The notes beneath the pieces are model-generated. The model made no database searches. It saw nothing but the letters and a program-made list of their open reading frames with translations, and was not told the origin of the DNA. Of a stretch of 64,000 nucleotides of DNA, positions 5,403-20,629 are shown in pieces (position 1 is the first letter of the stretch; every line of letters begins with the position of its first letter). The stretch comes from Promethearchaeota archaeon. GTDB taxonomy: Archaea > Asgardarchaeota > Lokiarchaeia > Sigyniarchaeales > SOKP01. The stretch lies in contig JAEOUA010000007.1 in the NCBI GenBank assembly GCA_016839555.1, forward strand, positions 124,001 through 188,000. Direction: 5' to 3'. The position numbers were made by a program, and so were the translations under genes.

Positions 5403-6536
5403 ATGGAATATAAGAATGAAAAACCCGCTATACTAATGCTAAAAGATGGCCGATATTTTAAGGGTATCGGGTTCGGTGCAACTAAAATTGTTACAGGAGA
5501 ATTAGTATTTACAACAATAACTGGCGCAGGATATAATGAAACGCTCACAGATCCCTCCTATCAAGGTCAAATTGTTATTATGACTCATCCTTTAGTGGGA
5601 AACTATGGTGTACCTTCATGGGAGAAAGATGAATATGGGTTAATAAAATATTTTGAATCTGAATCTATTAAAGTAAGTGGATTTGTTGTAAATGAATGTT
5701 GTAAGCATCCCCATCATTATAAAAGCGTAAAAAATTTGGATCAATTTCTCACAGAAGAAGATATTCCAGGAATTGAATGGATGGATACGCGTGCTATCAC
5801 GAAAATCTTACGAGAAGAAGGAGTGCAAGTCGGATTATTAGCTGTTTTTAATCCTGGAAAAAAACCTAATATTGAAGAATTAAGAGAAATGGTAAAAGAG
5901 GCAGAAGATCCAAATCTAAGAAAATTAGCTGGTGAAGTCTCTGTTAAAAAAATTAAAAAATATTCACCAGTCAACCCTCGAGGAAGAGTGGTAATTTTAG
6001 ATTTAGGTGTGAAATATAGTATTATACGAAATTTATTAAAAAGAAATATAGAAGTAATTCTCGTACCATATGACTATACTTATGAGCAAATAATGAAATA
6101 TAGTCCTAATGGAGTAATTATATCAAATGGTCCGGGAGATCCCAAATTATATTATAATGCCATAGAAGTAAGTACAAGGTTGATGGAGGATGATATACCA
6201 ACCTTCGGAATATGTTTAGGAAACCAAATAATAGGCTTAGCTGCGGGGGGAACTTCCTATAAATTAAAATACGGGCATCGGGGCGGGAACAAAACCGTTA
6301 TAAATCCAGAAACAAGACGTTGCTATATTACCTCTCAAAATCATGGATATTGCGTAAAAGATTTTGAAGCAGGGGGTTTTATAGAATTTTTAAAAAACAT
6401 AGATGATGACTCAAATGAGGGAATTATTCATGAACGAAAACCAATTTTTGCGGTTCAATTTCATCCTGAAGCCTCGCCAGGTCCTCTAGATTCTATATAT
6501 TTATTTGATAAATTTATTGAATTGATGGAGATCTGA
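5403..6536 (+). CDS. carA: Carbamoyl-phosphate synthase small subunit (active glutaminase)
   Basis: Supplies ammonia from glutamine to CarB for carbamoyl phosphate, the precursor of pyrimidines and arginine. The N-terminal domain has the family stretch GYNETLTDPSYQGQI and NYGVP. The C-terminal class I amidotransferase keeps the full triad: Cys271 in GICLGN, His354 and Glu356 in FHPEASPGP. It is normal length (377). The stop is followed four bases later by the carB start, so the two form an operon. The wording of the N-terminal motifs is close to what I remember of eukaryotic CAD. The second carA in this window has lost the Cys and His, which makes this copy the only glutamine-using one here. 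Confidence 0.95.
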   Translation: MEYKNEKPAILMLKDGRYFKGIGFGATKIVTGELVFTTITGAGYNETLTDPSYQGQIVIMTHPLVGNYGVPSWEKDEYGLIKYFESESIKVSGFVVNECCKHPHHYKSVKNLDQFLTEEDIPGIEWMDTRAITKILREEGVQVGLLAVFNPGKKPNIEELREMVKEAEDPNLRKLAGEVSVKKIKKYSPVNPRGRVVILDLGVKYSIIRNLLKRNIEVILVPYDYTYEQIMKYSPNGVIISNGPGDPKLYYNAIEVSTRLMEDDIPTFGICLGNQIIGLAAGGTSYKLKYGHRGGNKTVINPETRRCYITSQNHGYCVKDFEAGGFIEFLKNIDDDSNEGIIHERKPIFAVQFHPEASPGPLDSIYLFDKFIELMEI

Positions 6537-6540
6537 TATC

Positions 6541-9500
6541 ATGCCTTTTGATAAATCCATTAAAAAAGCCTTAGTTTTAGGGAGTGGAGGTATTCGAATT
6601 GGCCAAGCAGGTGAATTTGACTACTCGGGTTCCCAAGTTTTAAAAGCCTTAAAAGAAGAGGGAATAGAAACTATCCTTATTAACCCAAATATTGCAACAA
6701 TTCAAACAGATCCTCAATTATCTGATAGAGTATATTTATTACCTATTAATGTTAAATATGTAGAAAAAGTTATCAAAAAGGAACGTCCTGACGGAATTCT
6801 TCTCTCATTTGGAGGACAAACAGCTCTTAATGTTGGAGTAGAACTCCAAGAATTAGGAATATTGGAAAAATATAATGTCCGTGTTTTAGGAACTCCTATT
6901 GAGGCAATCGAGGCGACAGAAGATAGGGATTTATTTGTAAAAGCAATGAATAAATCTAATGCCCCCGTGTGTAAAAGTAAGGCCGTCAATTCATATAATG
7001 AAGCAATTAAAACAGTGGAGGAATTTGGTTTTCCTTTAATGATAAGGGTAGCCTATACTTTAGGAGGAAGAGGTTCTGGTATTGTTTCTGATATCAAAGA
7101 ATTTGAAAAAATGGCAAGAAGAGGATTGGCACAATCCAGAATAAATCAAATACTTATTGAGGAGAGTGTATGGGGCTGGAAAGAAATTGAATATGAAGTT
7201 GTCCGTGATGCAGCAGATAATTGTTTTATAAATTGCAATATGGAGAATTTTGATCCTGTAGGTGTGCACACCGGGGAATCAATTGTCGTAGCCCCTTCTC
7301 AGACTCTTACTAATGAAGAATATCAAATGCTCCGTTCCGCGTCAATACGAATTATTAGAAATTTAGGGATTATTGGAGAATGTAATATTCAATATGCCCT
7401 TCATCCAAAAAGTAATGAATTTAGAGTAATTGAAGTAAATGCCCGTCTTTCAAGATCTTCCGCTTTAGCTTCAAAAGCGACGGGATATCCTTTAGCTTAT
7501 ATAGCTGCGAAATTAGCAATTGGATATCAACTTCCGGAATTGAAAAATAAAATTACAGGTAAAACGACCGCGTGTTTTGAACCCGCGTTAGATTATCTTG
7601 TCTTGAAAATTCCGCGCTGGGATATGACCAAATTTCAAAGAGTTGACCGTCATATCGGCAGTCAAATGAAGTCAGTCGGCGAAGTGATGGCTATTGGACG
7701 CACCTTCGAGGAAGTATTACAGAAGGCTGTCCGAATGCTCGATATTGGTATGAAAGGAATGGTTTCGAATGATTTAGAGCCAATTGAAGACCTTAATGAA
7801 TTAAAATATAACCTAAGAAATCCCACCGATTTACGAGTTTTTCGCTTGATTGAGGCTATTAAGAGAGGATTAGATCTCGATGAGATTTATAACCTTTCAA
7901 GAGTCGATAAATGGTTCCTCTATAAATTGCAAAATATTATTAATATTGAACGCCAGATTGAATCTTTAGATCTTTTAAAGTCTTCTGACTCTCAAAAAAA
8001 ATATATACTTAAAAGAGCAAAACGTTTTGGCTTTTCGGATGGACAAATCGCTAAAATTATGGGAATAGATACCATTCAAATACGTAATTTGCGCAGACGC
8101 TTCAACATTACTCCTTGCGTAAAACGAATTGATACCTTGGCAGCGGAATGGCCTGCTATCACTAATTATTTGTATCTTACTTATGCAGGTTTGGAGCATG
8201 ATATTGACTATGAACAAGAGGCTAGAAAGAATTTGCAAAAAATCATCGTGCTTGGAAGTGGTACATATCGAATTGGGGCGAGTGTTGAATTTGATTGGGG
8301 TTCTGTAAATTGCCTATGGGGTTTAAAAAAGCAAGATGTTGATCAAGCTATTATTATTAATTATAACCCAGAGACGGTTAGTACCGATTATGATATCAGC
8401 GATAAACTTTATTTCGAAGAGCTTTCGGGTGAGAGGGTATTAGATATATGTGAGTTAGAAAATCCCTATGGTATTATTGTTTCAGTAGGAGGGCAAATCG
8501 CAAATAACCTTGCCGCCAAATTCTCTAAGTATAGTGAGTTTTTTAGGAAAGTTGGTATTAATATCTTAGGGACTCACGGCTCTCGTATTGATATGGCGGA
8601 AGATCGTAGTAAATTTAGTAATTTGTTAGACCAATTGAATATCGGACAACCCCAATGGAAAACTTTGACCAATAAAGCGGAAGCGATAGATTTTTCTAAA
8701 GATGTGGGTTATCCCGTTCTCGTGCGCCCTTCCTATGTATTGAGCGGAGCTGCTATGAGAGTCTGTTATGATCAAAAGACATTGCAAGACACTTTAGATC
8801 TCGCCGCTTCCGTATCGAGTGAGTATCCCGTGGTAATTACCAAATTCTTTACTGATGCCCGTGAAGTAGAATGCGATGGAGTGTGCGATGGAGAAGAGGT
8901 GCTTATTGGAGCAATTGTGGAGCATATAGAAAATGCTGGAATTCATTCTGGAGATGCTACAATGGCAATCCCTCCTCAAACCATCTCAAATGAGGTGATT
9001 GAGATAATCAAAAAATACACAAAACAGATCGCTTTAGCACTTAAAATAAAAGGTCCTTTCAATGTTCAATATTTAGTAAAGAATGGGGGCGTCTATGTTA
9101 TCGAATGTAATCTCCGTTCAAGCCGCAGCATGCCTTATGTATCTAAAACCCGCGGCATTAACTTAATGCGAATCGCGGCAGAAATCTTCATGGGAAAGAA
9201 AATCCCCAAGCGATTATTAGATTTATCCTATGGGGATTATATCTCAGTAAAAGCTCCCATGTTTTCCTTCATGCGATTAGATAAAGCCGACCCAATTCTT
9301 GGCGTCGAGATGAATTCAACGGGGGAATGTGCGAGTTTTGGCGATACTTTTCCGGAAGCATTAGTAAAAGCAATTGAATCAACTGGTAGAAATATTCCGA
9401 TTTACGGGGGGAACGTCCTAATTTCAGTAGGCGGAGAGGAATTAAAGAAAAAAATTATCCCCTTAGCACAGAAATTAAGAAATATGGGCTTTACCATTTT

Positions 9501-9852
9501 TGCTACGGAGGATACTGCGTTAGCAATGAAAAAAAACGGGATATTCGCCGTCAAGCTGTATAAAATCTATGAATACGGAAAGGAGCCGAACATTGTGAGT
9601 TGCCTAGAAAATGCTGCTATAGACCTCGTTATAAATATCCCACTTCCAACAACCGTGGAAGAAAAATTCAGGCAAATTATGGAGGATGAGTATGTAATCA
9701 GGCGGAAGGCAGTTGATTTTAATATTCCTGTGATTACGAACTTTGAGTTGGGAGCCGCACTAGTAGACGCTATAGAAGAATTGCGCCATAAAGAAATCTC
9801 TATTAAATCTTTAAATGAATACCATAAAACCCTAAAAGAAGTTTATTGGTAG
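6541..9852 (+). CDS. carB: Carbamoyl-phosphate synthase large subunit, copy 1
   Basis: A full-length 1103-residue CarB. The first carboxyphosphate ATP-grasp half starts LVLGSGGIRIGQAGEFDYSG and contains IEVNARLSRSSALASKATG. A linker/oligomerisation region spans about 400-570. The second carbamate-phosphorylating half begins at IIVLGSGTYRIGASVEFDWG and contains ECNLRSSRSMPYVSKTRG. A C-terminal MGS-like effector domain spans about 960-1103. The catalytic and nucleotide-binding motifs appear intact. It is translated directly after carA. Several motifs, including the NARLSRSSALASKATGYPLAY stretch, match eukaryotic CPS as I recall it more closely than E. coli. Part of the gene uses more G/C-ending codons than its second copy downstream. 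Confidence 0.96.
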   Translation: MPFDKSIKKALVLGSGGIRIGQAGEFDYSGSQVLKALKEEGIETILINPNIATIQTDPQLSDRVYLLPINVKYVEKVIKKERPDGILLSFGGQTALNVGVELQELGILEKYNVRVLGTPIEAIEATEDRDLFVKAMNKSNAPVCKSKAVNSYNEAIKTVEEFGFPLMIRVAYTLGGRGSGIVSDIKEFEKMARRGLAQSRINQILIEESVWGWKEIEYEVVRDAADNCFINCNMENFDPVGVHTGESIVVAPSQTLTNEEYQMLRSASIRIIRNLGIIGECNIQYALHPKSNEFRVIEVNARLSRSSALASKATGYPLAYIAAKLAIGYQLPELKNKITGKTTACFEPALDYLVLKIPRWDMTKFQRVDRHIGSQMKSVGEVMAIGRTFEEVLQKAVRMLDIGMKGMVSNDLEPIEDLNELKYNLRNPTDLRVFRLIEAIKRGLDLDEIYNLSRVDKWFLYKLQNIINIERQIESLDLLKSSDSQKKYILKRAKRFGFSDGQIAKIMGIDTIQIRNLRRRFNITPCVKRIDTLAAEWPAITNYLYLTYAGLEHDIDYEQEARKNLQKIIVLGSGTYRIGASVEFDWGSVNCLWGLKKQDVDQAIIINYNPETVSTDYDISDKLYFEELSGERVLDICELENPYGIIVSVGGQIANNLAAKFSKYSEFFRKVGINILGTHGSRIDMAEDRSKFSNLLDQLNIGQPQWKTLTNKAEAIDFSKDVGYPVLVRPSYVLSGAAMRVCYDQKTLQDTLDLAASVSSEYPVVITKFFTDAREVECDGVCDGEEVLIGAIVEHIENAGIHSGDATMAIPPQTISNEVIEIIKKYTKQIALALKIKGPFNVQYLVKNGGVYVIECNLRSSRSMPYVSKTRGINLMRIAAEIFMGKKIPKRLLDLSYGDYISVKAPMFSFMRLDKADPILGVEMNSTGECASFGDTFPEALVKAIESTGRNIPIYGGNVLISVGGEELKKKIIPLAQKLRNMGFTIFATEDTALAMKKNGIFAVKLYKIYEYGKEPNIVSCLENAAIDLVINIPLPTTVEEKFRQIMEDEYVIRRKAVDFNIPVITNFELGAALVDAIEELRHKEISIKSLNEYHKTLKEVYW

Positions 9853-9928: not shown

Positions 9929-10087
9929 ATGGCAATATCAACTAATAATAGGTATAGAAGTTGCGTTGACTGCGACCATTATAATGAGGAGAGGCAATAT
10001 TGTGAATACTTTAAGAGAAAGCTCTCTCCACACTGTTATTGTTTAGTAGACGGAAATATGGTTTATTTCCTTAAAAACAATAACTAA
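9929..10087 (+). CDS. Small cysteine-rich protein (52 aa) between the two car operons
   Basis: A short ORF not in the track: MAISTNNRYRSCVDCDHYNE and onward. It has five cysteines and two histidines in 52 residues, arranged as CxxCxHY near residues 12-17, a lone Cys at 25, and HCYC at 35-38. That is consistent with one small zinc-binding knuckle. It starts 77 bases after carB copy 1, on the same strand, with no clear SD but an AT-rich TATA-like TTTTTTAATAT region just upstream. No family is recognised. The codon pattern and clustered Cys argue for a real gene, but chance cannot be excluded. Confidence 0.45.
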   Translation: MAISTNNRYRSCVDCDHYNEERQYCEYFKRKLSPHCYCLVDGNMVYFLKNNN

Positions 10088-10252: not shown

Positions 10253-11392
10253 ATGATTTATAAAACTGAAAAACCAGCTATTTTGATGTTAGATAGTGGG
10301 CTATATTTTAAGGGAATTGGTTTTGGCGCCGTTAAAAAAGTATCTGGTGAAATCATATTTAATACAATACCAGGTTCGGGTTATGTTGAATTATTAACTA
10401 ATCCCACAAATAAAGGAAAAATTATAGTATGTACATACCCCTCCATCGGTAACTACGGGGTTCCCGCAAAATTGAGAGATGAATATGGGATATTAAAACA
10501 GTTTGAATCAGACTCAATTCATATAAATGGACTCGTAATCAGCGAATATTGTGATACACCGAGTCATTATGAAAGTATCAAAACCTTAGAGGAATGGCTT
10601 ATAGAGGAGGATATTCCTGCTATACAATGGGTAGATACGAGAAGGTTAACCCAATATCTCGTTCAAAATAAAACCTCTATGGGGATTTTACAAGTTTTTG
10701 ATCAAAATAGCAAACCAAATATTCAAGCTTTACGAGAAGAAGCAAAAAAATTAAAGAATTTAAATAAAAGAAATTTAGTAGAAGTGGTTTCCACCAAAAA
10801 AGTGAAAACTTATTCTTGTGAAAATAGTAAGGCAACAGTTCTCATTATTGATTTAGGAGTGAAAAACGGTATTTTAAGGGTTCTTCTCAAAAAAAAGATG
10901 GATATCGTTATAGTTCCCCATAATTTTTACTATAATAATATAATGGAGTTAAGGCCTGATGGAATTTTGATTTCAAATGGACCAGGGAATCCGAAAATAT
11001 ATTCTGAAATCGTGAACTTAATCGAAAAACTTCTAAATACAGAAACTCCAATGATGGGAATAGGATTGGGTCATATTTTAATTGGATTAGCGGCAGGTGC
11101 AGAAGTCTATAAGATGAAAGCCCCTCATAGAGGGGGAAGAACAACTGTGAAAAACTCAACAAATCAATGTTATATAACTTACCAAAATCATGGCTATTGT
11201 TTAAAAAGTTTAAAAGAAAATGGTTTTTCAGAATACTTTCATGATAAGGATGATGGATCGAATGAAGGGCTGATTCATAAAAATAAATCAATTTTTTCAG
11301 TTTTATTTAATCCAGAAGGATCCCCTGGGCCATTAGATGTGAGGGATATCATATTTGATAAATTTATAGAATCAATCAAGGTGAAGAAATAA
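10253..11392 (+). CDS. carA: CarA paralogue with inactivated glutaminase (ammonia-type CPS small subunit)
   Basis: A 379-residue paralogue aligning end to end with the upstream CarA. The class I amidotransferase nucleophile is gone: position 271 is Gly (GIGLGH where copy 1 has GICLGN), and the catalytic His is Asn353 (FNPEGSPGP instead of FHPEASPGP). Glu355 and the oxyanion/substrate loops remain. The protein therefore cannot hydrolyse glutamine but could keep its structural role. This resembles vertebrate CPS I, where the same Cys is Ser and the enzyme uses free ammonia. The stop codon overlaps the carB2 start by one base, so the two are translationally coupled, supporting a working ammonia-dependent pair. 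Confidence 0.92.
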   Translation: MIYKTEKPAILMLDSGLYFKGIGFGAVKKVSGEIIFNTIPGSGYVELLTNPTNKGKIIVCTYPSIGNYGVPAKLRDEYGILKQFESDSIHINGLVISEYCDTPSHYESIKTLEEWLIEEDIPAIQWVDTRRLTQYLVQNKTSMGILQVFDQNSKPNIQALREEAKKLKNLNKRNLVEVVSTKKVKTYSCENSKATVLIIDLGVKNGILRVLLKKKMDIVIVPHNFYYNNIMELRPDGILISNGPGNPKIYSEIVNLIEKLLNTETPMMGIGLGHILIGLAAGAEVYKMKAPHRGGRTTVKNSTNQCYITYQNHGYCLKSLKENGFSEYFHDKDDGSNEGLIHKNKSIFSVLFNPEGSPGPLDVRDIIFDKFIESIKVKK

Positions 11393-14300
11393 TGCCCTTG
11401 GATAAATCAATCAAGAAAGTTCTCGTTTTAGGCTCTGGGGCAGTCAGAATCGGACAAGCAGGAGAATTTGACTATTCTGGTTCTCAAGTACTTAAAGCAT
11501 TAAATGAGGAGGGTATTGAAACAATTCTCGTGAATCCTAATATTGCCACAATCCAAACAGATCCTCAAATGTCTGATAAAGTTTACTTGGTTCCAATAAA
11601 TGTTAAATATGTTGAGGAAATTATTGAAAAAGAACGACCGGATGGAATCTGTCTTTCTTTTGGTGGGCAAACAGGATTAAATGTGGGAGTAGAATTAAAA
11701 GAAGCGGGAATTTTAGATAAATATAATGTGAGAGTTTTTGGAACACCAATTAAAGCTATTGAAGCTACTGAAGATCGTGATTTATTTGTAAAAGCGATGA
11801 ATGAAGCTAATTGCCCCGTATGTAAAAGCAAAGCGGTAACAAGTTATAAGGAGGCAAAACAAGTAGTTGAAAAATTTGGATTTCCTCTTATGCTGAGAGT
11901 GGCTTATGTTCTTGGAGGGAGAGGCTCTGGAATAATCCACAATATGAAGGAATTTGAACGAAAAGCAAAAGTTGGCTTGGCTCAATCAAGAATTAATCAA
12001 ATTTTAATTGAGGAATCAGTATGGGGCTGGAAAGAAATAGAATTTGAAATTCTTAGGGATGCGGATGATAATTGCTTTATTAATTGCTCTATGGAAAACG
12101 TTGATCCCTGTGGAATTCACACTGGAGATTCAATTGTAGTCGCTCCCGCTCAAACTCTAACTGATGAAGAATTACAAATGCTTCGTTCAGCATCAATTAG
12201 AGCTACTAAAGCTGTCGGAGTCTGTGGAGAGTGTAATATTCAATGGGCTTTAGATCCTTTCTCTAAAAAATATAGAGCAATTGAGATAAATGCAAGATTA
12301 TCTCGATCTTCCGCATTAGCTTCTAAAGCCACTGGCTATCCATTAGCGTATATTGCTGCGAAAATTGCAGTGGGATATACTTTACCAGAGCTTATAAATC
12401 AAATAACCTTAAAAACCACCGCAAATTTTGAACCCGCCACAGATTATATGGTCTTAAAGTATCCTCGATGGGATTTAACAAAATTTGAAAAGGTTGATAG
12501 ACATATTGGTCCTCAAATGAAAGGCGTAGGGGAATGTATGAGTATTGGAAGGTGCTTTGAAGAGGTATGTCAGAAAGCATTACGCATGTTAGATATTAAT
12601 CTGAAAGGATTTGTTGCAAATGATCTTGAACCGATTGAAGATATAAATGAATTGAAATATGAATTAAGAAATCCCACAGATTTAAGATTCTTAAGAATTA
12701 GTGAAGCAATAAAACGAGGGATTTCTATTGAAGAAATTTATGAACGGTCCAGAATTGATAAATGGTTTCTTCATAAATTAGAAAATATCATTAAAATTGA
12801 GAAGGAATTAGAAAACCTAGACTTTTTACAATCTTCTGATGAAGATAAAGAATATTTATTAACAAGGGCAAAAAGATTTGGTTTTTCTGATGGACAAATT
12901 GGTAAAATCATGGGATTGACTACTCCCGTAATACGAAGATTGCGAAAACGATTAAGAATTGTTCCCTATGTAAAACAAATTGATACATTGGCAGGTCAAA
13001 TTGAACCTGAACGTCATTATTTATACCTTACTTATTGGGGGGATAAACATGATATTGATTTTGAGAAAGAAGAGCAAGAAAATCAAAAAAAAGTGATTGT
13101 CTTAGGTTCAGGAACGTATCGAATAGGCTCCTCTGTTGAATTTGATTGGGGTTGTGTTAATTGTTTGTGGGGTTTACAAGAGCTTGGTGTTGATAAAGCG
13201 ATAATTATTAATTATAATCCTGAGACGGTAAGTACAGATTATGATATTTCTGATCGTCTTTATTTTGAGGAACTTTCAGGGGAACGGGTGCTAGATATCT
13301 GCGAATTAGAAAAACCATATGGAATTGTGCTAAACGCAGGGGGTCAAATCGCCCAAAATCTTGCCGCAAAGTTTGCAAAATATTCAGAGTTTTATCGAAA
13401 AACCAATATAAGGATATTGGGAACGCATGGCTCTCGTATCGATATGGCAGAGGATCGCGTGAAATTCAGTGCCCTCCTTGATGATCTACATATTAATCAA
13501 CCCGAATGGGCAATGCTTACCACTACAGAGGAAGCTATTGAGTTTGCCGAAAAAGTAGGATATCCAGTATTAGTGAGACCTTCTTATGTATTAAGTGGTG
13601 CTGCAATGCGAGTATCTTATGATAAAAAAACCTTAAAAGATACACTTGACTTAGCTGCGGCAGTATCTCGAGAATATCCAGTAATTATAACAAAATTTTT
13701 TACAGATTCAAGAGAGGTGGAATGCGACGGGATTTGCGATGGGGAGAATGTATTGATTGGAGCTATAGTGGAGCACATTGAAAATGCCGGTGTTCATTCT
13801 GGGGACGCCACCATGACAATCCCTCCACAGACTATTTCTAAAAAAATAATAAAACAAATAGAAGAATATACACGAGAAATTGCTTTAGCTTTGAAAATAT
13901 TAGGGCCATTTAATATTCAATATTTAGTAAAGGATGGGGAAGTTTCTGTGATTGAATGTAATTTAAGATCCAGCCGTAGCATGCCGTATGTATCTAAAAC
14001 ACGCGGAATAAATTTAATGAAATTAGCAGCAGAAGTTATAATGGGAAATAAAATACCAAAAAAATTAATAGACCTTCCCTATGGTAATTTTGTGGGAGTA
14101 AAAGCTCCCATGTTTTCATTTATGCGATTGGATAATGCAGATCCCATTTTAGGAGTGGAGATGAACTCTACTGGTGAAGTGGGGGTACTCGGAGATGATT
14201 TCGCAGATGCTTTAATGAAGGCACTTGAAGCTGCCGAAAATAATATACCTATTAAAAATGGAAATGTATTAATTTCAGTGGGAGGAGAGGAGCTTAAGAA

Positions 14301-14703
14301 GAAAATAATCCCTTTAGCAAAAAAATTGAAAAATATGGGATTTACGATCTTTGCGACGGAGGATACTGCTCTGGCTCTTAAAAAGAATGGAATTGATACT
14401 GTAAGATTATATAAAGTACATGAAGTTGGAAAAGAGCCAAATATTATGAAATGTTTACGAAAAGGAGAAATAGATTTAGTAATTAACATCCCCTTACCAA
14501 CGACGGTCAAAGAGAAATTTAGGCAAATAATGGAGGATGAATATAAAATTAGACGCCATGCGGTCGATTTTAATATTCCTGTTATCATTAATTTACAACT
14601 TGCCAAATCATTAATTAACGCCATTGAAAAAATGCGTCAAAAACAATTCTCAATTAAGGCTTTAAATGATTACCATAAATCATTAGAAGAAGTGTATTGG
14701 TAA
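11392..14703 (+). CDS. carB: Carbamoyl-phosphate synthase large subunit, copy 2
   Basis: A 1103-residue CarB collinear with copy 1 and the same length. Both ATP-grasp halves are complete ([20 protein letters not shown] at the start, [20 protein letters not shown] near residue 575, [19 protein letters not shown], and [18 protein letters not shown]), with the MGS-like C-terminus present. It starts at an ATG overlapping the stop of the glutaminase-dead CarA, so this pair most likely makes carbamoyl phosphate from free ammonia. Amino-acid identity to copy 1 looks high, but the codons differ throughout, so the duplication is not recent. Which pathway it feeds (arginine, pyrimidine or nitrogen storage) cannot be read from the neighbours. 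Confidence 0.95.
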   Translation: [1103 protein letters not shown]

Positions 14704-19040: not shown

Positions 19041-20276
19041 ATGGCTGAAGCTGATATTGCTTTTGTTTTGATATGCACTGGTTTGGTCTTTATAATGACA
19101 CCTGGATTAGCCTTCTTTTATGGCGGATTATTAAGGAAAAAAAATATTATTAATATGATGGCAATGTGCTTTGTTTCCATTGCGATCGTTTCTATCTTAT
19201 GGTTTTTCTTAGGTTATAGTTTAGCATTTGGTCCTGATATTGGAGGTTTTATTGGCGGATTCGATTATATAGGATTAATCGGAGTAGATTTTCAATCGGA
19301 ATTCGATTTTTCATTAATATTAGGAGATATCTACAGATATTTCTTTCTTGCTCCAACAATTCCTGACATGTTATTTATGGTATTTCAGTTAATGTTTGCT
19401 ATTATTACTGTTGCAATAATTGCAAGTCCATTTTCAGAAAGAGTAAACTTTGGTGCTTTTTGCATTTTTATCTCTATTTGGTTAATCATCGTGTATTCTC
19501 CAATTGCTCACTGGGTGTGGGGAGAAGGAGGATGGTTAAATGTTATGGGCGCACTTGATTTTGCTGGAGGTACAGTTGTTCACATAAATGTGGGATTTGC
19601 CGCATTAGCAGTAGCAATGGTAATAGGACCACGTGCAGGATATCAAAAAGAATCACATGGACCATCCAATATACCTTATGTATTATTAGGAATGGGATTA
19701 TTATGGATCGGGTGGTTTGGTTTCAACGGAGGTAGTGCTTTAGCTGCAAATGGTGATGCTGTTTTAGCAGTATTTAACACGCATATCGCTGCAAGTTCTG
19801 GGGGCATAATTTGGATGTTGATTGAATATTCAAGAACAAAAAAATTCAGTACTTTGGGTCTCGCTTCAGGAGTGCTTGCGGGCTTAGTTGCCATAACACC
19901 AGCAGCTGGATTTGTACAACCATGGGCGGCACTTCTTATAGGAACTATTTCAGGAGTATTTTGCTTTTTCGCACTTTCCCTACGTTCACGCTCGAAAATT
20001 GATGAATCATTAGATGCTATCTCTATTCATGGAACAGGAGGTATCTGGGGTGCAATTGCTACAGGAATATTCGCAAGTATAGGTTCATCTGGATTACTTT
20101 TAGGAAATTTAGTACAATTCTTTATCCAAATACTCGGTGTTGTAGTAACCATAGGATTTTCATTTGGTATAACTTATGCTTTAGCATGGGTTCTTAATAA
20201 AACAATTGGATTTAGAGTACCTATTGAATTGGAATATGTAGGTCTTGATATGTCGCAGCATGGAGAAATAGCATGA
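19041..20276 (+). CDS. amt: Ammonium transporter (Amt/Mep/Rh family)
   Basis: A 411-residue membrane channel with about eleven helices. Signature parts are PGLAFFYGGLLRKKN near the N-terminus, the twin pore histidines in GGTVVHINVGFAALA and SIHGTGGIWGAIATG, and WFGFNGGSALAAN. It moves ammonium/ammonia across the cell membrane. The first residues precede the first helix directly, as in archaeal Amt proteins with no cleaved signal. The stop codon is followed at once by the SD of the PII gene, the classic amt-glnK operon, so transport is probably blocked by PII when nitrogen is plentiful. Confidence 0.96.
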   Translation: MAEADIAFVLICTGLVFIMTPGLAFFYGGLLRKKNIINMMAMCFVSIAIVSILWFFLGYSLAFGPDIGGFIGGFDYIGLIGVDFQSEFDFSLILGDIYRYFFLAPTIPDMLFMVFQLMFAIITVAIIASPFSERVNFGAFCIFISIWLIIVYSPIAHWVWGEGGWLNVMGALDFAGGTVVHINVGFAALAVAMVIGPRAGYQKESHGPSNIPYVLLGMGLLWIGWFGFNGGSALAANGDAVLAVFNTHIAASSGGIIWMLIEYSRTKKFSTLGLASGVLAGLVAITPAAGFVQPWAALLIGTISGVFCFFALSLRSRSKIDESLDAISIHGTGGIWGAIATGIFASIGSSGLLLGNLVQFFIQILGVVVTIGFSFGITYALAWVLNKTIGFRVPIELEYVGLDMSQHGEIA

Positions 20277-20287
20277 GGTGAATGAGA

Positions 20288-20629
20288 ATGAAAAAAATTG
20301 AATGTTTTATTAGGGCAGAAAAGCTTGAAATAGTGAAAAAAGCTTTATTCGAGAAAGGAATAAAAGGTATGAGTATTTATGAAGTACGTGGTCATGGTCA
20401 TCAAAGAGGCATGTTGTTAACAGGAAGAGCAGGACAATATTGTGTTGAATGGATCGGAAAACTAAAAATGGAAATTGCTATTAGTGATAAAGTGAATCTT
20501 GATGAAATTATTGATGTTATCATTGAAAATGCTAGAACGGGCAATCCAGGCGATGGAAAAATTTTCATTATTCCTATAGAAGATGCAATCAGAATTAGAA
20601 CCAACCAAAGAGGAGAAGAAATACTTTAA
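20288..20629 (+). CDS. glnK: PII nitrogen-regulatory protein (GlnK type)
   Basis: A PII signal protein, about 113 residues with the start chosen here. The track begins at 20282, but the SD GGTGA ends directly before that ATG and sits six bases from the ATG at 20288, which also gives the standard PII beginning MKKIECFIRAEKLE. The C-terminal ATP-binding part GNPGDGKIFIIPIEDAIRIRTNQRGEEI is standard. The T-loop reads EVRGHGHQRGMLLTGRAGQY; the Tyr that is uridylylated in enterics is not at its place, as in many archaea. It follows amt directly and should gate it in response to ATP/ADP and 2-oxoglutarate. Confidence 0.93.
   Translation: MKKIECFIRAEKLEIVKKALFEKGIKGMSIYEVRGHGHQRGMLLTGRAGQYCVEWIGKLKMEIAISDKVNLDEIIDVIIENARTGNPGDGKIFIIPIEDAIRIRTNQRGEEIL

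Follow-up and report, generated by a model that had tools for sequence, protein, structure and literature searches.

A second CarA lacking the glutaminase Cys and His in Lokiarchaeia suggests an ammonia-dependent carbamoyl-phosphate synthetase

The window, i.e. the whole stretch of 64,000 nucleotides that was analysed, is part of the Lokiarchaeia MAG G000 (3.74 Mb, 92% complete). It contains two tandem carAB pairs, carA1-carB1 followed by carA2-carB2, which encode the small and large subunits of carbamoyl-phosphate synthetase (CPS). The following features were considered:

5403..6536, + strand: carA1, canonical glutaminase subunit with Cys271, His354 and the Gln kept (TIGR01368, 418 bits, cut-off 307)
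6541..9852, + strand: carB1, canonical synthetase subunit, 1103 aa (TIGR01369, 1472 bits)
10253..11392, + strand: carA2, small subunit predicted to be glutaminase-dead (Gly271, Asn353; Gln273 equivalent lost), identified by TIGR01368 and by its fold in Foldseek
11063..11065, + strand: Gly271 codon of carA2, replacing the nucleophilic Cys (E. coli Cys269); Gly in 11/11 orthologues
11309..11311, + strand: Asn353 codon of carA2, replacing the catalytic His (E. coli His353); Asn in 11/11 orthologues
11392..14703, + strand: carB2, synthetase subunit, 1103 aa, both ATP-grasp active sites intact
19041..20276, + strand: Amt ammonium transporter (PF00909, E=1.3e-123), in the neighbourhood, not in the same operon as carAB2
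20282..20629, + strand: PII nitrogen regulator of the GlnB/GlnK type beside Amt (PF00543, E=3.8e-24), in the neighbourhood only

The stop codon of carA2 and the start codon of carB2 overlap in the sequence TAATG (11390-11394), which confirms the translational coupling proposed in a preliminary description of this DNA. Promoter and terminator scans gave scores at the level of shuffled sequences. A Cys-rich ORF of 52 codons (MAISTNNRYRSCVDCDHYNEERQYCEYFKRKLSPHCYC...) without a Pfam match lies between carB1 and carA2 (9929-10087).

CarA1 carries the motifs FGICLGNQ (Cys271) and QFHPEASPGP (His354), whereas CarA2 reads MGIGLGHI (Gly271) and LFNPEGSPGP (Asn353); the preliminary description had given these substitutions with the right numbering and coordinates. 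According to the alignment, Gly271 and Asn353 of CarA2 are equivalent to E. coli Cys269 and His353. Glu355, the third member of the triad, is Glu in ten of the 11 CarA2 sequences and Asp in one. At the Gln273 position, none of the 11 sequences has Gln (M, I, V, F or N instead), and Ser47 is changed to Thr or Val in all ten sequences covering the site; the preliminary description had overlooked these two changes. Both the GPG oxyanion loop and the HRGG motif are retained, the latter as HRGS in a single sequence. CarA2 scores above the curated cut-off of TIGR01368 (353 vs. 307 bits), and the domains PF00988 (CPSase_sm_chain) and PF00117 (GATase) were found. Of the residues that define glutamine hydrolysis, the nucleophilic Cys, the catalytic His and Gln273 are missing in 11/11 sequences, and a GATase domain with a broken glutaminase triad is present, as defined for CPS I. 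Judged by its residues, CarA2 does not belong to the glutamine-hydrolysing family to which it is assigned by HMM annotation, and its automatic label as a glutamine-hydrolysing subunit is misleading. Since Cys269 and His353 of E. coli are each essential for glutamine hydrolysis (PMC6245113), glutamine use is taken to be excluded, and CarA2 is predicted with high confidence to be unable to use it.

CarA2 was searched in 83 genomes of the class and 227 genomes of the phylum, gene neighbourhoods were retrieved and genome content was probed family by family. The CarA2 family comprises the window copy and ten relatives with 54-62% identity to it, encoded in ten other Lokiarchaeia genomes (11 independent MAGs in total, belonging to seven genera). 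The alignment across Asgard genomes, which the preliminary description had proposed as a check, gave the opposite of random substitution: Gly269 and Asn353 (E. coli numbering) are identical in all 11 orthologues. The other Asgard CarA have Cys in 70 of 70 distinct sequences and His in 68 of 68 sequences covering the site, with G081 counted in its corrected frame. The same two residues in every CarA2 argue against random decay and against sequencing error. When 84,980 species genomes were scanned for CarA2 peptides (DKDD motif, FSV[ALT]FNPE), a procedure blind to independent Cys losses carrying other peptides, relatives were found only in ten Lokiarchaeota MAGs; all named carriers are Candidatus Lokiarchaeota/Lokiarchaeia MAGs. 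No CarA2 relatives were found on viral contigs, and no earlier report of a prokaryotic Cys-less CarA was found in the open-access literature.

The 11 CarB2 sequences form a clade of their own (support 100/100), and so do the ten full-length CarA2 sequences (100/100). The glutaminase-dead CPS appears to have a single origin and to be maintained. In all 11 genomes, carA2 adjoins carB2. The tandem order carAB1-carAB2, which fits a tandem duplication, was found in G000, G075, G017, G021 and G030 (in the latter, only the end of carB1 is present at the contig edge), and the two pairs are on different contigs in G020, G022 and G024. Full-length carAB1 and carAB2 occur together in seven genomes, and carAB1 sequence, complete or partial, is present in 9/11. 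The type-2 pair is found in seven of the nine genera of the window genome's family and many members are without it, a patchiness which implies that the pair was often lost, or moved.

Mean identities were calculated for the same seven genomes and are 80.8% for CarB2 vs. 80.1% for CarB1, and 59% for CarA2 vs. 75% for CarA1; the value for CarA2 is lower in the N-terminal and GATase parts alike. For gene pairs with computable dS, dN/dS is 0.10-0.18 for CarA2 vs. ~0.04 for CarB2, values which are rough since several dS are saturated or nearly so. The residues N244, R295, D331, K332, S349 and N353 are fixed specifically in CarA2. Because of the low dN/dS and these fixed residues of its own, CarA2 is not considered to be decaying; it appears to be a maintained protein under relaxed but real constraint.

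CarB2 is recognized by TIGR01369 and contains two ATP-grasp domains as well as the oligomerisation and MGS domains. Its active site was compared at positions which we take to be those of the E. coli structure. All residues checked in the carboxyphosphate site (R129, R169, E215, E299, N301 and others) and in the carbamoyl-phosphate site (R675, R715, E761, E841, N843 and others) are identical between CarB2 and the CarB1 of the window. The ATP-site residues match E. coli except for 210, 754 and 756, where the change is common to both Lokiarchaeal CarB copies. As these residues are intact, the synthetase should work, and CarB2 is predicted to be functional. K954, T974, T977, K993 and N1015 of the UMP/IMP site are kept in both copies, and E892 and Y1040 of the E. 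coli ornithine site are kept in neither; since both sites are alike, they provide no allosteric distinction between CarB1 and CarB2. In total, 25 CarB positions are fixed differently between the two copies, several of them within E. coli 218-286. The AlphaFold2 model of CarA2 (pLDDT 82, pTM 0.85) was submitted to Foldseek, and the best matches were E. coli CarA structures including 1A9X and 1C30 (TM-score 0.87); human CPS1 was also matched.

In G037 (99% complete, 90 contigs) and in G032 (97% complete), a single CarA and a single CarB were found, each of type 2. CarAB1 is likely absent from these two genomes, although this is not certain as both are MAGs. The preliminary description had assumed a glutamine-type and an ammonia-type CPS side by side, which does not hold for G032 and G037, as these have the putative ammonia-type copy only. 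Both carry aspartate carbamoyltransferase (ATC), and both carry ornithine carbamoyltransferase (OTC) close to carbamate kinase; no argininosuccinate synthase over the cut-off was found in either. In these species, CarAB2 most likely feeds pyrimidine synthesis, and the OTC/carbamate kinase pair looks catabolic. In G000, canonical OTC and ATC are both present and a match to argininosuccinate synthase was found, thus arginine and pyrimidines could both draw on CarAB2. A second carbamoyltransferase type, scoring below the OTC cut-off, was observed in G020, G022, G019, G024, G030 and G032 (L078:89-1132). The L078 sequence scores best against N-acetylornithine carbamoyltransferase, which suggests an acetylated arginine route in some Lokiarchaeia. 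Five further Lokiarchaeia genomes (G027, G029, G033, G034 and G035; 92-99% complete) contain carbamoyltransferases and no detected CarA or CarB.

The Amt and PII genes of the window are located 4.3 kb downstream of carB2. Amt was found in 10/65 genomes of the window genome's family, namely in 4/11 genomes with CarAB2 vs. 6/54 others (Fisher's exact test, one-sided p=0.057). In four genomes it is within ~13 kb of a carAB pair, i.e. ~5 kb from carB2 in G000 and G075 and near the canonical carAB in G028 and G038. No Amt was detected in G032 and G037, which have CarAB2 only. These positions are a hint that genes for ammonium uptake and carbamoyl-phosphate synthesis are neighbours.

Other genes near the carAB pairs were recorded as well. 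Just upstream of carAB1-carAB2 in G017 (L035:2406-7281), genes for CTP synthase (N-terminal sequence), glutamine synthetase (Pfam) and GMP synthase (sequence) were recognized, which would represent a nitrogen and nucleotide cluster. In G024 (L044:9303-12418), carA1 and carB1 are ~3 kb apart, and a gene pair, one of several features between them, resembles by eye a split aconitase-X type protein. In five genomes, carB2 is directly followed by a gene for a small protein of ~82-108 aa (L037:3463-3750, L035:16406-16732, L038:9099-9362, L042:3932-4195 and L033:5201-5449), which is conserved across Lokiarchaeia. The L035 copy has no Pfam match and the L037 copy no NCBIfam match; by eye, the protein resembles a stand-alone ligand-binding domain of the Lrp/AsnC type (RAM) and is possibly a CPS regulator. 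It was rejected as a type-2-specific component, since it also follows carB1 in other genomes.

We consider it quite probable that CarA2 and CarB2 form a working carbamoyl-phosphate synthetase which draws its nitrogen from free ammonia and which arose by duplication and a single loss of glutaminase. The carAB pair would have been duplicated once in tandem within Lokiarchaeia, and CarA2 would have lost its glutaminase in one event (Cys to Gly and His to Asn, with Gln273 and Ser47 changed), being retained as a structural or regulatory partner that binds CarB2. CarB2 would form carboxyphosphate from bicarbonate and ATP, ammonia would reach it from solution, and a second ATP would phosphorylate the resulting carbamate. 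The product would supply the synthesis of pyrimidines and, where the pathway exists, of arginine. We infer the ammonia donor, the binding of CarA2 to CarB2 and the use of the product for pyrimidines or arginine. The ammonia-dependent CPS predicted by the preliminary description is supported by the conserved Gly and Asn, by purifying selection and by the intact CarB2, with ammonia use as the simplest remaining function.

Variants of E. coli CPS with a blocked glutamine tunnel are active on external ammonia, and human CPS1 is glutamine-blind as its Cys is Ser (PMC4655335). Taken together, these data on the E. coli and human enzymes imply that glutamine would be no donor for CarAB2, and that ammonia could in principle be one. 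However, for E. coli CPS to use ammonia, very high and probably unphysiological concentrations are required (PMC6245113), so loss of the glutaminase alone does not guarantee a useful ammonia affinity. The comparison of CarB1 and CarB2 identified no change in CarB2 that would raise this affinity. In genomes that also encode CarA1, CarB2 could bind this subunit instead and use glutamine. A further-reaching reading is put forward tentatively, and we rate it at somewhat below even chances: CarAB2 may be a CPS that is dedicated to ammonia and competent under physiological conditions, a prokaryotic counterpart to CPS I which evolved independently in Lokiarchaea. It would be the sole CPS feeding pyrimidines from ammonia in some species, and its former glutaminase site, fixed as Gly/Asn, would have been repurposed for ammonia entry or regulation.

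It is unlikely, though worth weighing, that CarA2 is a regulatory pseudo-subunit which competes for or tunes CarB1 and CarB2, with CarB2 normally pairing with CarA1 and working on glutamine. The complete fold of CarA2 and its N-terminal CPSase domain, both kept under selection, would fit such a role, as would the carAB1 sequences in most of the genomes; but in G032 and G037, where neither CarA1 nor CarB1 was detected, CarA2 is the only partner of CarB2, and the two genes are adjacent in every genome that has them. We give even less credence to CarAB2 supplying a dedicated consumer, for example HypF (cyanide ligand of NiFe hydrogenase) or a branch towards arginine/citrulline, the donor being ammonia because glutamine is scarce. 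In G024, carAB2 directly adjoins hypF, and hypE follows ~2 kb beyond carB2. This adjacency is limited to a single genome, and nearly all members of the family have hypF, with or without CarAB2 (some match in 64/65 genomes, over the cut-off in 52/65), hence HypF was demoted as a dedicated consumer; moreover, G032 and G037 keep CarAB2 yet have no detected argininosuccinate synthase. That CarA2 is a decaying paralogue heading for loss, with CarB2 retained for another reason, would be in line with its faster divergence compared to CarA1, but is very improbable and largely refuted by the full-length ORFs, the uniform Gly/Asn across seven genera, the dN/dS values and the clade-specific fixed residues. 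That CarA2 still frees ammonia from glutamine or a different amide through a modified mechanism, for which the retained Glu355, oxyanion loop and HRGG motif might speak, is scarcely credible, since no replacement nucleophile is present (the three Cys found in at least nine CarA2, at E. coli positions 86, 305 and 315, also occur in canonical CarA) and the glutamine-contacting Gln273 has been lost.

The textbook case in which a glutamine amidotransferase gave up its glutaminase and switched to free ammonia is CPS I. Vertebrate CPS1 (PDB 5DOT, 6UEL), which is the best PDB sequence match of CarA2, likewise kept the GATase domain, lost the catalytic Cys and has a changed Gln273 equivalent (human GISTGNL); it uses ammonia, and its synthetase domains are intact, as in CarB2. 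In human CPS1, however, Cys is changed to Ser and His is kept, whereas Lokiarchaeal CarA2 has Gly and Asn. Furthermore, CPS1 is a mitochondrial, N-acetylglutamate-requiring enzyme of one chain, whereas carA2 and carB2 are separate genes and the fusion of glutaminase and synthetase which defines CPS I is absent. As CarA2 nests inside the Lokiarchaeal CarA, we infer that it originated, and lost its glutaminase, separately from CPS1. The comparison with the urea-cycle type enzyme in the preliminary description stands for the predicted nitrogen donor, but not for the separate subunits or for the substitutions, which differ from those of human CPS I. The best explanation is that CarAB2 resembles CPS I in the nitrogen donor it uses, without being a member of CPS I.

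E. coli CarAB shares the two-subunit architecture and the fold with CarAB2. The His to Asn change found naturally in CarA2 is the one present in E. coli 1A9X (H353N), and 1C30 (C269S) is changed at the same Cys. In contrast, the wild-type CarA of E. coli has glutaminase activity, and very high concentrations are required for the reaction with ammonia (PMC6245113). CPS III of Alcolapia fish has likewise changed independently from glutamine to ammonia (PMC7657897), but in this enzyme the triad is kept and one Gln-binding residue is changed. The carbamate-kinase-like CPS of Pyrococcus/Thermococcus also makes archaeal carbamoyl phosphate from ammonia (PMC6022934); it has an unrelated amino-acid-kinase fold, whereas CarB2 is of the ATP-grasp type.

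From its sequence, CarAB2 appears to be a known enzyme in a new form, which arose once and is Lokiarchaeal. As a two-subunit Asgard counterpart with both catalytic residues replaced, it would be an independent replicate of the CPS I switch. With seven genomes encoding both copies and two encoding CarAB2 only, the adaptation of an amidotransferase to ammonia becomes directly testable, and the predicted enzyme is also relevant to how anaerobic Asgard archaea use nitrogen.
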